Source: an uncultured Alphaproteobacteria bacterium (lineage in GTDB: Bacteria; Pseudomonadota; Alphaproteobacteria; VGEJ01). Taken from it: a stretch of DNA of 64,000 bases. The notes under the pieces are model-generated. The model worked only from the letters and a program-made list of their open reading frames with translations. It ran no database searches and was not told the DNA's origin. The stretch is taken from the NCBI GenBank assembly GCA_913041535.1, contig CAJWJK010000003.1, positions 26,953 through 90,952 on the forward strand, written 5' to 3'. Positions 6,548 to 19,681 of the stretch are shown in pieces (positions within the stretch are counted from its first letter, which is position 1; the number at the start of each line of letters is the position of its first letter). The translations under genes and the position numbers were made by a program.

Positions 6548-7420
6548 CTAAGATTGTGTTTGTTTGCACAAGCGTTGGCATAAGTCGTCAAGCTGTTCAA
6601 GAGTTTTATAGTTGATGGTGACTCGACCACCACGAGGCCCCCAATCCTCTATGTTCATGACGAGCCCTAGAGCATGCGAGACGTTGCGTTCAAGTTCCGC
6701 CGTATTGGCATCTTTAAGTTTACGTTTTTGAAGTTGTTTGGATGGTTGTTTTGCCAGTCGCTCTGCTTGGCGGACACTCAGGTCTCGCTCGATGATATCT
6801 TTTACTAATTGTAATGGATTATTTGTTGCCAACAACGCACGGCCATGACCAGCGGTTAGCTTGCCGTCTTGAAGTAAGTTTTGTATTGACTCGGGTAAAG
6901 TTAGCAAGCGTAGCGTGTTGGCAACGTGACTTCTGCTTTTGCCAACGGTCTGGGCAATCTGTTCTTGTGTTTGGCTAAACTCATCGATTAGGCGTTGGTA
7001 ACCGTCAGCTTCTTCTATTGCAGTTAAATCTTGCCTTTGAAGGTTTTCGACAAGAGCAAGTTCTAATGCGTCTTCATCGCTTATTTCTTTGACAATTATC
7101 GGCACTTGGTGAAGTTGGGCTAGTTGGGCAGCACGCCAACGGCGCTCACCTGCAAGTATCTGGTAGGAATCAGGCTTTTCATCTGAACGGCGAACAAGAA
7201 TGGGCTGAAGAATGCCTTGAGCGCGAATTGATGCCGCCAATGCTTCGATATCACCCTGAATAAAGGCCTTACGGGGCTGGTGGGGATTAGGCTCTAGCCG
7301 TTCGATCGGCACCGTGTTGGCGGTCTGTACGCGGTCTAACGAAGCGAGTTCTGCTTCATCTTCGCCGAATAAGGCTGAAAGCCCGCGGCCTAGCCCCTTG
7401 TTGCGCATTTCTTCGGTCAT
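6548..7420 (-). CDS. parB: Chromosome partitioning protein ParB
   Basis: KGLGRGLSALFGED, RLEPNPHQPRKAF, GERRWRAAQLA, HTH ENLQRQDLTAIEEADGYQRLI. Start set at MTEEMRNKG (7420), overlapping the parA stop as ATGA; the ORF track start (7489) is too long. Confidence 0.96.
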   Translation of the reverse strand: MTEEMRNKGLGRGLSALFGEDEAELASLDRVQTANTVPIERLEPNPHQPRKAFIQGDIEALAASIRAQGILQPILVRRSDEKPDSYQILAGERRWRAAQLAQLHQVPIIVKEISDEDALELALVENLQRQDLTAIEEADGYQRLIDEFSQTQEQIAQTVGKSRSHVANTLRLLTLPESIQNLLQDGKLTAGHGRALLATNNPLQLVKDIIERDLSVRQAERLAKQPSKQLQKRKLKDANTAELERNVSHALGLVMNIEDWGPRGGRVTINYKTLEQLDDLCQRLCKQTQS

Positions 7421-8223
7421 GCCGCAGCCAGCGTCTCTCGACGCAGGACCTCTCGCGCTAGTGCCATATAGGCAGTGCTTCCTGCACAATGACGATCGTA
7501 GATAAGAGCTGGTTTACCGTGAGACGGAGCTTCAGACATCCTAACATTGCGAGGGATTATAGTTTCATAAACTTTGGACCCCATACAGTTTCGAACGTCT
7601 TCAGCGACTTGGGCAGATAGTTTGTTTCGTTTATCGTACATAGTTAGTACTACTCCTTCGATTCCCAGCGAGGGATTAAAAACACGGCGAACTCGTTGAA
7701 GTGTACGGACAAGTTGAGTTAATCCTTGAAGTGCAAAAAACTCGCATTGAAGGGGGATTAGAACGGTTTGGGAGGCCGTTAAGGCGTTCAGGGTTAGAAA
7801 ACCAAGAGCTGGAGGGCAATCGATTAAAATGTAATCGTGATCGGTTGGTGCGGCTTGTACTGCGTCGAGTAGGCGATATTCGCGTCGTTCAGAGTCGACC
7901 AGTTCTATTTCTGCCCCCATTAGGTCCACTGTCGATGGAACAAGGTCGAGGCCAGGGATTTCGGTGTATCGGTGAGCTTCATGTAGTGGTTTGGATCCTT
8001 CAATAACTTCGTAAGTTGATACGGAGCCAGCAGCTGCGGTCAGACCTAAACCCGTGGTGGCATTGCCTTGGGGGTCCGCATCAATCAATAGGGTGCGCCT
8101 GCCTACAGCAGCAAGGGCTGTTGCTAGATTAATTGCCGTCGTTGTTTTACCAACGCCGCCCTTTTGATTGGCGACAGAAATGATCCGTTGGCTACGTTTG
8201 GGCGATAGAGTCGAATCAGGAAT
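7417..8223 (-). CDS. parA: Chromosome partitioning ATPase ParA, start revised to a putative non-canonical ATT
   Basis: In-frame reading upstream of the track start gives [54 protein letters not shown], restoring Walker A. No ATG/GTG/TTG exists between the upstream in-frame TGA and the track's TTG at 8088. AAAGGG lies 7 nt before ATT (8223-8221). Confidence 0.9.
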   Translation of the reverse strand: MPDSTLSPKRSQRIISVANQKGGVGKTTTAINLATALAAVGRRTLLIDADPQGNATTGLGLTAAAGSVSTYEVIEGSKPLHEAHRYTEIPGLDLVPSTVDLMGAEIELVDSERREYRLLDAVQAAPTDHDYILIDCPPALGFLTLNALTASQTVLIPLQCEFFALQGLTQLVRTLQRVRRVFNPSLGIEGVVLTMYDKRNKLSAQVAEDVRNCMGSKVYETIIPRNVRMSEAPSHGKPALIYDRHCAGSTAYMALAREVLRRETLAAA

Positions 8224-8830
8224 TGTCGAACCCTTTCACGCGCAAGATAACACCCGAAGCATGTGACCGACTTTTCACAAGTTCTAGCTGTATTGTCGGA
8301 TATTTGGCCAGTGCCGTCAATTCGGTGCCAAATTTTGAGCCTTTTATGAATAGGCCCAATGTGTCCTGTTTGGCAAAGGCGTTGGCAAGATCAATTAGCT
8401 TTGCCAATGGCCCGATAGCTCGCGCCGTTATTACATCGGCGTTTAGCTTGGTCATATCTTCGATACGTTGACAATGTATAGTTACTTTTGTAGCAGTTTG
8501 GCGTGCTGTAGCACGAAGAAATTCGCACTTTCGCTGGTTGCTTTCAATCAGATGAACATCGGGAGCGCCCATTATCGCAAGCACTAGACCTGGAAAGCCT
8601 GCCCCGGCTCCTAAGTCAACCCAGGTTTGGCATGTAGGGGGAGCTAGCGCTAATAGTTGCGCTGAATCTAGGAAGTGGCGCCGCCAAATATCGGCCAGGG
8701 ATGCCTCGCTGACAAGATTAACGCCTCTGTTCCATTTAATTAACGCATCTGCGAAAAGTTCAAGACGTGACATTGTTTCACGTGAAACACTAGTTGCGAC
8801 ACAAAAGGCCTCGGGGGTTAATGGCCTCAC
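8216..8830 (-). CDS. rsmG: 16S rRNA (guanine527-N7)-methyltransferase RsmG
   Basis: [52 protein letters not shown] overlap with mnmG. Confidence 0.95.
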
Positions 8831-10743
8831 CTCAAGGCGCCTGCTCCGCGCCGTCTTACATGGCTAAGTAGAGCTGTCACCGCTCCTGCGGTTATCCCTG
8901 GAATTCGCGATGCTTGGCCTAAAGTTGTTGGACGCGCGTTGCTCAATTTTTCACGCACCTCGTTGGAGAGTCCTCCGATCTGATCATAATTGAGCCATGG
9001 CGGTAACGTGAGATCTTCATCTCTCCTGAAAGCTTCAATGTCGGCGGCCTGGCGGTCAATATACATTGAATAATGAGCTTCTGTTTCCAGTTGAGAGGCG
9101 ATGGAATGGGGAATGTTTTTTAGTTCTGGCCAACGCACAGAAAGTTTAGCAATTGTTGTGCCAGGTACGCATAAAAAATCGGCAGCACAATTCCGTTTTC
9201 CATCACGTAATGCTGCTAAACCAGCGGCCCGCGCATCGGTTGCGTTCGTTCTGAGTGTGGAAAGCATCTCGTGAGCGTTTGATACTGCGGCCATCTTACG
9301 GGCAAAGATACTGCTTCTTTTTGGGCTTACACACCCAATTTTCTCACCTATAGGTGTCAAACGCTTGTCGGCGTTGTCAGCTCGTAAGCTTAGGCGATAT
9401 TCTGCTCTCGAAGTAAACATTCTATATGGCTCGTCGACTCCCTTGGTAACTAGATCGTCGATCAGCACACCAATATAACCGTCGGCACGGTCCAATAATA
9501 GTGGATCGCTATCGCCCGCCGTTAGCGCTGCATTTATCCCAGCAATAAGACCTTGAGCTGCAGCTTCTTCATACCCCGTGGTGCCATTTATCTGGCCGGC
9601 AAGGTATAGACCTTTCAATCGCTTGGTTTCTAAGCTGGCAAGGAGTTCACGGGGATCAACGTGATCGTATTCGATTGCATACCCCGACTTAAGCATAATT
9701 GCATTTTCTAAGCCAGGAATGGTAGCAAGCATTGATTTTTGTATCTCTTTGGGAAGTGATGTGGAGATCCCGTTGGGGTAGACCGTATTTACATCTAAGC
9801 CTTCCGGCTCGAGAAAAATTTGATGATGGGATCTATCGGGGAAGCGCATCACTTTGTCTTCAATTGAAGGACAGTACCGGGGGCCTTGACCGATTATACG
9901 GCCTGAGTACATTGGCGCACGATTTATATTTGAGCGGATAATTTCGTGCGTCCTGCAGGTTGTTCCAGTAATATGGCAAGGGATTTGTTTTGTGGTAATT
10001 GATGAAGTTAGATAAGAGAATGGCGTCGGAGGGTTGTCGCCCAGTTGTACTTCGAGTTCATCCCAGTTGATGGTTCGGGCATCGATGCGGGGAGGGGTCC
10101 CTGTTTTTAGTCGGGCTAAACGGAAACCAACAGCTTGTAAGCTATTAGCCAGCCCGACGGCAGGTGCTTCACCAGCGCGTCCAGCGTCGGTGGTTTCCTC
10201 TCCGATGTGGATTTTCCCTCGAAGAAAGGTGCCCGTTGTGATCACAACGCATGGTGCGATAATTTGCCTTCCATCGCTTGTTTTGACGCCTCGGATTGAT
10301 CCACTATCAAAAAGCAGCTCGTCGACAGCGCTTTCAAGGATGTCCAATTTTGTCAGTTGGCCCAAAGCGTGCTGCATTTCGGCTGCATAAAGTTTTCGAT
10401 CTATCTGAGCCCGTGGACCTCGTACAGCAGGGCCTTTTCGTTGATTAAGCATTCTAAACTGTATTCCAGCTGCATCAGCGGTTAGCCCCATTAGTCCGTC
10501 TAGAGCATCCACTTCTTTTACCAAATGGCCTTTTCCAATCCCACCAATCGCTGGGTTGCAGGACATTGCACCTATTGTGCTCCAAGAATGAGTAATAAGC
10601 AGTGTGCGCGCCCCTACTCGTACTGACGCACTGGCTGCTTCACAACCAGCATGGCCACCGCCAATGATGATAACCTCGTACTTGTTGGTAGCTGATTTAG
10701 ACAGCCAGGAAGGCAAGTTATTTGCCAATGCACATCTCCGCAA
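8827..10743 (-). CDS. mnmG: tRNA uridine-5-carboxymethylaminomethyl modification enzyme MnmG
   Basis: [68 protein letters not shown]. Confidence 0.98.
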
Positions 10744-12037
10744 AAACTATATCTAGTAAATCCTCCACGTCGACACTACCTGTAATACGGCCCAATGCTC
10801 GTGTCGCTAGCCGCAAATCTTCCGCCATCAACTCAATATCCACGTTGTGACACGCTCTTTCTAGCGACGCTTGGCACTCCTGAAGTGCTTGTCGATGGCG
10901 GGCATGGGTGATAACGCTTCTCTCGCCGTTAGAAAGCTGGGCGGCTGCCTCTTTCTCTATTGCGCGACTCAAAGAATCCATACCTTGTCCAGTAAGAGCA
11001 GATACTCCAAAGGCATTCTGTGCGTCTGGAATTTCTGGTTCCGAAATAAGGTCGATCTTATTAAATACGATTATTTCAGTGCCATTGCCACCCACATTAT
11101 TTGCTTCCCCGGGGCATCTAGCATCAAAAACCATCAGCTTTATATCAGCCGACTTTGCGCGCTCTAGTGCTCGACGAACGCCTTCTTCTTCCACTTCATC
11201 CAGAGAACTTCGGAGGCCAGCTGTATCTGCTACGGTTACTGGATAACCGTTTAAGTCCAACTGGACCTCTACCACATCACGAGTTGTGCCCGCGCGGGCC
11301 GACACTATGGCTGCATCGCGGCCTGTTAAGTGATTGATAATAGTAGATTTACCGACATTTGGCCGTCCTAGAATCACTATATATATGCCTTCCCTAAGGC
11401 GCTCTCCGCGTCCGCCATCGTCAAGATATTCTGTTATTTGGTTTAATAACCGCTTACAGTCCGCCCGTGATTTCTCCGTAAGTTCAACTGGGAGCTCATC
11501 TTCCACAAAGTCAATCTCTGCTTCCAGGCGTCCGAGGGCTCGTAGTAAACAGGTTTTCCATTGCTCGCATTGGGCACCAAATTCGCCGCTAAGTTGTCTA
11601 AGAGCCTGTCGGCGCTGTGCGGCGGTTTCCGCGTTAATGAGATCGTTCAAGCCTTCTGCTTGAGTAAGATCAATTTTTCCATTTTGGAATCGGCGTTTGG
11701 TAAATTCGCCCGGATAAGCGGCACGCAGACCCGATTGTGATTCCAGCGCGCCGATAACACCAGCGACGACTGCAGCGCCACCGTGAAGATGGAGTTCAAC
11801 CACTTCCTCGCCGCTATAACTTGTTGGAGCGGGAAACCATAGAACTAACGCTTTGTCCAGGTGCTCTTTTGCGTTTGCTGTGCGGAGATCAACAAGTTTT
11901 GCACGATGTGCAACAGGTTGACCGCAACCCAGTAGTTTGACCGCATCCAATGCTTTCGGTCCTGACAAGCGTAATACGGCGATCCCAGCACGCCCGCGCC
12001 CGCTCGCAAGAGCAAAAATTGTGTCTGAGTTGGTCAG
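10718..12037 (-). CDS. mnmE: tRNA modification GTPase MnmE, start revised to a putative CTG
   Basis: GTPase [16 protein letters not shown]-terminal CIGK. The upstream in-frame segment (M)[29 protein letters not shown] matches the expected MnmE N-terminus. The only start-like codon after the in-frame TGA is CTG at 12037-12035, overlapping the upstream gene's TGA. Confidence 0.9.
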
Positions 12038-12396
12038 GGTAGATCAGGCTCAGTTTGATCGGGTTTCAACTGAAGGCGCTCCACTCTGCGATTACCAATT
12101 ACATCTGTTTCAAGAATTTCATCAAGATCGGCTTTAGTGCGATAGGTGTACCACACACCTTTCGGATAGATGACAAGAGTTGGTCCCAATTCGCACCGAT
12201 CGAGGCACATCGACGCATTTATACGAACGTCGTCAAGTCCCAAAGCTTTGATCTTAGCTTTCAAATAGTTTCGCAATGGTTCTGAGCCTCTAGCTTTACA
12301 GCAGCCACGTGGATGGCCTGAGGGACGTTCGTTTATGCACATGAATACATGACATCCGTAATACAGTTGCCGTTCAGGTTCAGGGCGGTCTTTCAT
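12034..12396 (-). CDS. Thioredoxin-like [2Fe-2S] ferredoxin domain protein
   Basis: YYGCHVFMCINERP...GCCKARGSEPL...INASMCLDRCELGPTLVIYPKGVWY; cysteine pattern of thioredoxin-fold [2Fe-2S] proteins. Confidence 0.85.
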   Translation of the reverse strand: MKDRPEPERQLYYGCHVFMCINERPSGHPRGCCKARGSEPLRNYLKAKIKALGLDDVRINASMCLDRCELGPTLVIYPKGVWYTYRTKADLDEILETDVIGNRRVERLQLKPDQTEPDLP

Positions 12397-18691: not shown

Positions 18692-19681
18692 CTACGGGTG
18701 ATTACTAGACTTTTCAAGATAGTCCTTTACGTAGGTAGAGATCCCCAATTCTAGAGGGGTAAATGGCTTGGTGTACCCCGAAGATCGTAGGCGGTCCATT
18801 TTTGCTTCAGTAAAGTATTGATAGCGCGTACGGAGATCTAAAGGAGTATCGCAGTACTCTATCAATGGTTCGCGATCTAAAGCTACAAAAACTGCGCTTG
18901 CAAGCTCGTTAAAGCTTCGTGCGTGACCACTTCCTAAATTGAAAAGCCCACTTATTTCTTCGTGATCAAGAAGCCATAAAATCACGTCAACGCAGTCTTT
19001 TACGTAAATGAAATCCCGCTTTTGTTCGCCGTCCTTACAGTCACTACGATGCGAGCGAAATAATTGAGGTATATGACCACTGGTGATCGTTTCATATATT
19101 TGCAGGGCTACGCTTCTCATCGCTCCTTTGTGGCCCTCACCAGGCCCAAAAACATTAAAAAACTTCAGACCAACCCACTGGGAACCCCGAAGTAGCGCCT
19201 GCGAATCAGCCGTTATACAGCGGTCGACAAGGTGCTTGCTCCAAGCATAGGGATTAAGCGGACAAAGTTTTTCCAACAACTCGGGTATTGGGTCGTCATC
19301 AAAGCCGTAAGATCCGTCGCCATACGTAGCAGCTGATGATGCGTAAATCAGACGGGTGTCATGCGCACGGCACCAGCGCCAAAGGTCTAGTGTATAGTTA
19401 GTATTGTGTTTTAGCAGCAGGTCAACGTTAGTCTCGGTAGTGTCAGAGATTGCACCCATATGGATCACGGTCTTGACTGCGCTAGCGGATGAGAGGAAGT
19501 TGATCAAATTGTCAGGCGCGATGATATCTGCGACATTGGCTGTAGATAGATTTCTCCACTTGGTGCTTTCATCATGCCAGTCACAAACGACTATGTTGTA
19601 TTCTGATTTCTCTGTTAGCTCAGAAACAATGTTGGATCCTATAAATCCAGCCCCTCCGGTTACAACAATGGTTTGCACCAT
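18692..19681 (-). CDS. hldD: ADP-glyceromanno-heptose 6-epimerase
   Basis: VVTGGAGFIGSNIV, YASSAATYGDG, YAWSKHLVD, GLKFFNVFGPGEGHKGAM; next to hldE. Confidence 0.93.
   Translation of the reverse strand: MVQTIVVTGGAGFIGSNIVSELTEKSEYNIVVCDWHDESTKWRNLSTANVADIIAPDNLINFLSSASAVKTVIHMGAISDTTETNVDLLLKHNTNYTLDLWRWCRAHDTRLIYASSAATYGDGSYGFDDDPIPELLEKLCPLNPYAWSKHLVDRCITADSQALLRGSQWVGLKFFNVFGPGEGHKGAMRSVALQIYETITSGHIPQLFRSHRSDCKDGEQKRDFIYVKDCVDVILWLLDHEEISGLFNLGSGHARSFNELASAVFVALDREPLIEYCDTPLDLRTRYQYFTEAKMDRLRSSGYTKPFTPLELGISTYVKDYLEKSSNHP

Follow-up and report, generated by a model that had tools for sequence, protein, structure and literature searches.

In this uncultured alphaproteobacterium, the chromosome-partitioning gene parA lacks an ATG, GTG or TTG ahead of the sequence for its P-loop, and it is very probably translated from a near-cognate AUU codon at 8223-8221 (minus strand), an ancestral start overlapping the end of rsmG that appears to have become non-canonical and to have been retained. 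Positions are those of the window, i.e., the whole 64,000 nt stretch of DNA that was analysed, unless a contig is named. In support of this reading, a canonical start is absent, the position of the ATT is homologous to that of start codons in relatives, a Shine-Dalgarno-like sequence precedes it, the gene and its operon are otherwise intact, infC is intact and has an AUA start of its own, and similar genes occur elsewhere in the genome.

The parA reading frame

Read on the minus strand, the parA frame runs TGA AAG GGT TCG ACA ATT CCT GAT ... AAT CAA AAG GGC GGC GTT GGT AAA ACA, and between the in-frame TGA that bounds it upstream (8238-8236) and a TTG at 8088-8086 it contains no ATG, GTG or TTG. 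This TTG is the first canonical codon of the frame, lying 49 codons after the in-frame stop and 25 codons beyond the P-loop lysine, and a start there would remove the Walker A motif, as the P-loop codons (KGGVGKT) are found at 8163-8143. The first-pass annotation had described the same situation, with no canonical codon from the stop to the P-loop and an ORF start at 8088 that leaves out Walker A, and the sequence, frame and coordinates it quoted are exact. When the coding potential of 1,116 ORFs was surveyed across this genome, few had a signal that reached well upstream of any canonical start, and parA was one of them.

From ATT to TGA, the gene (7417-8223, minus strand) specifies a standard chromosomal ParA/Soj protein of 268 aa, an assignment based on Pfam, on relatives and on the uninterrupted frame. 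The Pfam AAA_31 match begins at profile position 2, corresponding to residue 17 of the open frame, and CbiA is a second match. The features expected of a chromosomal ParA (Soj) are all present, namely the Walker A sequence KGGVGKT, a ParA-type ATPase domain, an adjoining parB and a nearby parS.

The proposed start codon (ATT, 8223-8221) is preceded, with a 7 nt spacer, by the Shine-Dalgarno-like sequence AAAGGG (8236-8231). Its calculated duplex energy with the anti-Shine-Dalgarno sequence is -4.8 kcal/mol, compared with a median of -4.2 for the ATG starts of this genome, but the motif is a moderate one, and a quarter of random in-gene positions equal its pairing. Since the rsmG stop codon (TGA) is at 8218-8216, the ATT overlaps the 3' end of rsmG by 8 nt (ATTCCTGA). 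The spacing and the overlap that had been described for the ATT are both borne out, and its proposed role as the parA start is supported by the Shine-Dalgarno-like sequence, by the overlap and by homology to the start position of relatives (see below). Other near-cognate codons in the upstream stretch are an AAG directly after the stop, and an ATC and an ATT at codons -7 and -6 relative to the P-loop, which encode conserved residues ('RII') of a beta-strand.

The rsmG-parA-parB operon and parS

The gene order of the operon is mnmE-mnmG-rsmG-parA-parB. The rsmG ORF (8216-8830, minus strand), coding for a 16S rRNA methyltransferase, was assigned to its family from its position in the operon, and parB (6548-7420, minus strand), the ATG of which overlaps the parA stop codon (ATGA), was assigned from sequence and gene order. 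A pattern search of the genome for GTTTCACGTGAAAC, allowing up to one mismatch, returned a single site, a perfect 16-mer parS (TGTTTCACGTGAAACA) at 8774-8789, within the 5' part of rsmG. The genome of the sister genus carries a similar parS-like site at the corresponding place.

Start positions of parA in relatives

ParA loci were gathered from 58 genomes of the class, together with 80 loci of GTDB species. A ParA match was found in 58 of 59 relatives, the protein of the sister genus being 68% identical. In 105 loci, including that of the window's genome, the sequence was legible from the upstream frame through the P-loop. The window's genome is the sole exception: the 104 others all have an ATG, GTG or TTG 9 or more codons before the P-loop, the shortest distance among relatives being -9. 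Judged from these 104 loci, the lack of a canonical start in this parA is more than chance.

At the exact place of the ATT, the sister genus has GTGTCTGA (GTG), and the next-closest relative (G030) has ATGTCTGA, with an equal 8 nt overlap with the rsmG stop. In 32 loci other than the window's, a long ORF terminates 5 nt beyond a codon of the parA frame, and in 13 of these, the sister genus and G030 among them, that codon is ATG, GTG or TTG, well above the roughly 5% (3/61 codons) anticipated by chance. The ATT thus occupies a conserved start position and is one base away from ATG. Because all 104 relatives have canonical starts, and the sister genus and G030 start exactly there, the ATT almost certainly marks the ancestral start, its codon having changed. 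An ATT at the parA start was seen in this one genome, the nearest relative, with its GTG, belonging to another genus.

Other genes without a canonical start

In the survey, coding ORFs with coding signal upstream of their first canonical codon were collected, and the candidates were checked by homology and Pfam. Besides parA, at least two genes of this genome, and probably five, appear from these comparisons to lack an ordinary start. One of them, mnmE (10718-12037, minus strand), lies in the same window. Its Pfam TrmE_N match starts at position 1 of the profile, upstream of every canonical codon, and the proposed start, a CTG at 12037-12035 (within 12034-12043, minus strand), aligns with the ATG of G030 and forms a CTGA overlap with the stop codon of the ferredoxin-like gene that precedes mnmE. 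The first-pass annotation had treated parA as an isolated case, and this does not hold; since mnmE appears to start at CTG, the use of a non-canonical start is not specific to partitioning. In a 780-codon gene resembling coxL/xanthine dehydrogenase (contig C1, 19061-21403), the first canonical codon is 75 codons in, and the proposed start is an ATA at 19076, which has GGAG 7 nt ahead of it and aligns exactly with the annotated start of an Azospirillum ortholog.

In three further genes, a canonical start is probably absent before the conserved part, and the exact start, for which the likely codons have Shine-Dalgarno-like sequences, is less certain: folC (contig C7, 62813), likely starting at CTG, or at ATC; a threonine dehydratase gene (contig C5, 12016), likely at a CTG preceded by GGGGG; and a gene for an Fe-dependent alcohol dehydrogenase (contig C4, 81676), likely at an ATT preceded by AAGGAG. 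Several other ORFs were flagged by offset alone and simply begin at a later ATG. Also not counted were prfB, the pattern of which resembles its known programmed frameshift, and an ambiguous ABC transporter gene (contig C11, 13013). In a TPR-containing ORF (contig C18, 12232-13254), the coding signal starts without a start codon; this may be a truncated gene or a pseudogene, and it was likewise left out of the count.

Leaving infC aside, near-cognate starts are seen in about 6 of 1,116 coding ORFs in this genome, against none that is clear among about 455 ORFs from three relatives, a difference that is not significant at that size, so that an excess over other genomes, or a genome-wide relaxation of start selection, is suggested only.

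The initiation machinery was also inspected. The infC frame (contig C1, 271817-272374) is intact and has an ATA start with no canonical alternative, a feature that is frequent among relatives of the class. A degenerate IF3 was considered as the cause and rejected, as the protein is intact, with few deviations from conserved columns. An altered initiator tRNA was rejected as well: a consensus pattern missed the gene, and at the end of contig C21 a looser pattern located its 3' part, whose anticodon stem is ordinary. The sequenced part of this tRNA-fMet is ordinary and resembles that of the sister genus. No sign of an altered initiation apparatus was found in IF3 or in the sequenced part of the initiator tRNA.

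Assembly error and other explanations

An error in the assembly, raised as an alternative in the first-pass annotation, would be the most mundane explanation: ATT differs by one base from ATG, canonical starts are present in all relatives examined, and the genome is a draft of 39 contigs with an estimated contamination of 4.25%, so that a base error or a mixture of strains could conceal a true ATG or another canonical start. The general quality of the sequence argues against this. When 1.92 Mb of this genome was compared with 400 kb (three contigs) of the relative G042, none of the 140 orthologs recovered as reciprocal best hits (53,266 aligned residues) was split by a stop codon or frameshift. 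Adjacent in-frame ORFs, considered as a possible sign of premature stops or errors, look like ordinary neighbouring genes. Taking about 4% as the share of random substitutions that produce a stop (our own calculation), errors should affect fewer than about 5e-4 of bases (95%), a rough bound, as truncations near gene ends may be missed. At that rate a particular start would be spuriously lost with a probability of about 0.001, and the 140 genes should contain fewer than 0.2 such losses, whereas two were found (parA and mnmE), with further cases elsewhere in the genome (coxL, and probably folC, threonine dehydratase and Fe-dependent alcohol dehydrogenase). With no ortholog broken and other genes also lacking a canonical start, an assembly error is unlikely, although it keeps a small probability at this single base of parA.

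It is very unlikely that ParA starts at another codon of the frame. The TTG at 8088, as the first canonical codon, is the choice of codon-restricted gene finders, but a protein starting there would lack Walker A and the first strand, and the Pfam domain starts 33 codons earlier; initiation at the ATC or ATT just before the P-loop (-7/-6) would give a protein shorter than that of any relative examined, the shortest of which starts at -9. An RsmG-ParA fusion produced by frameshifting is more improbable still. Both frames are open from 8238 to 8216, a stretch of 22 nt, and parA is in the +1 frame relative to rsmG, yet a recognisable shift-prone site is absent from this stretch, and relatives with an equal overlap possess a start codon of their own. 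We give almost no credence to the idea that parA, deprived of its start, is turning into a pseudogene. Loss of the canonical start could be the first step of such a process, but the frame is intact over its full length, the motifs are conserved, parB and parS are intact, and the housekeeping genes mnmE and folC show the same feature.

Probable initiation at AUU

Under the preferred reading, initiation at AUU, a substitution, most simply ATG to ATT, would have made the ancestral parA start non-canonical, and the altered codon would then have been retained. Ribosomes would be recruited by the AAAGGG within rsmG and would probably include those fresh from translating rsmG. Initiation may then proceed at a fraction of AUG efficiency, held down by IF3, and ParA would be scarce compared with ParB, the start codon of which overlaps the end of parA. 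A low, rsmG-coupled and IF3-sensitive synthesis of ParA, as proposed in the first-pass annotation, is plausible from the analogy to infC, pcnB and sigR. What we infer is initiation at the ATT in cells, the coupling, the IF3 sensitivity, the low level and whatever advantage the ParA:ParB ratio might gain. The ATT may be adaptive, or it may be a substitution that the organism tolerates.

Non-canonical starts are already known in principle from infC, pcnB and sigR, and ParA is a new instance. The AUU start of infC in E. coli is discriminated by IF3 (PMC5472188); like parA here, it combines a near-cognate AUN codon (AUA or AUC in homologs, ATA only in this genome) with a Shine-Dalgarno sequence. 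It differs in that infC encodes the discriminating factor itself, resulting in autoregulation, and in that non-canonical starts are widespread among its homologs, whereas an ATT start of parA is known from this genome alone. In pcnB of E. coli, similarly to parA, an AUU start occurs in a gene unrelated to translation initiation and keeps its level low; unlike the present case this was shown by experiment, and pcnB is not a segregation gene (cited in PMC13009471). In Streptomyces, the GTC start of sigR is repressed by IF3, determines the ratio to a partner whose gene lies downstream and is misplaced by annotation programs (PMC5472188), but it is conserved across Streptomyces and was examined in IF3 mutants, while the parA ATT is known from the sequence of one genome. 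Natural AUU and AUA starts in S. aureus give about 10% of AUG expression, and those of cvfC1 (AUU), ccpN and citZ (both AUA) lie behind a Shine-Dalgarno sequence, as in parA (PMC13009471). In the three S. aureus genes this sequence is extended, whereas parA has a moderate AAAGGG located in a gene overlap. With the alphaproteobacterial rsmG-parA-parB operon, the locus shares gene order, a nearby parS and the 8 nt rsmG/parA overlap, and differs in having ATT where the others start with ATG, GTG or TTG.

Gene finders limited to ATG, GTG and TTG would silently truncate this ParA past its catalytic P-loop, and would do likewise to other important genes of this genome, so that a gene seemingly lost from a draft genome may owe its absence to annotation. 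The parA case gains interest from the other starts of this kind in the genome. Literature searches brought up no earlier ParA with a near-cognate start; the present one, if the proposed start is correct, would be the first within their reach and would link chromosome segregation to start-codon fidelity. A bolder and rather doubtful possibility is that AUU, AUA and CUG starts in housekeeping genes of this small-genome alphaproteobacterium (parA, mnmE, coxL, probably folC, and others) make up an IF3-responsive set. Such a set would far exceed the one or two genes of this kind in E. coli, and chromosome segregation and tRNA modification would then track the level of IF3.
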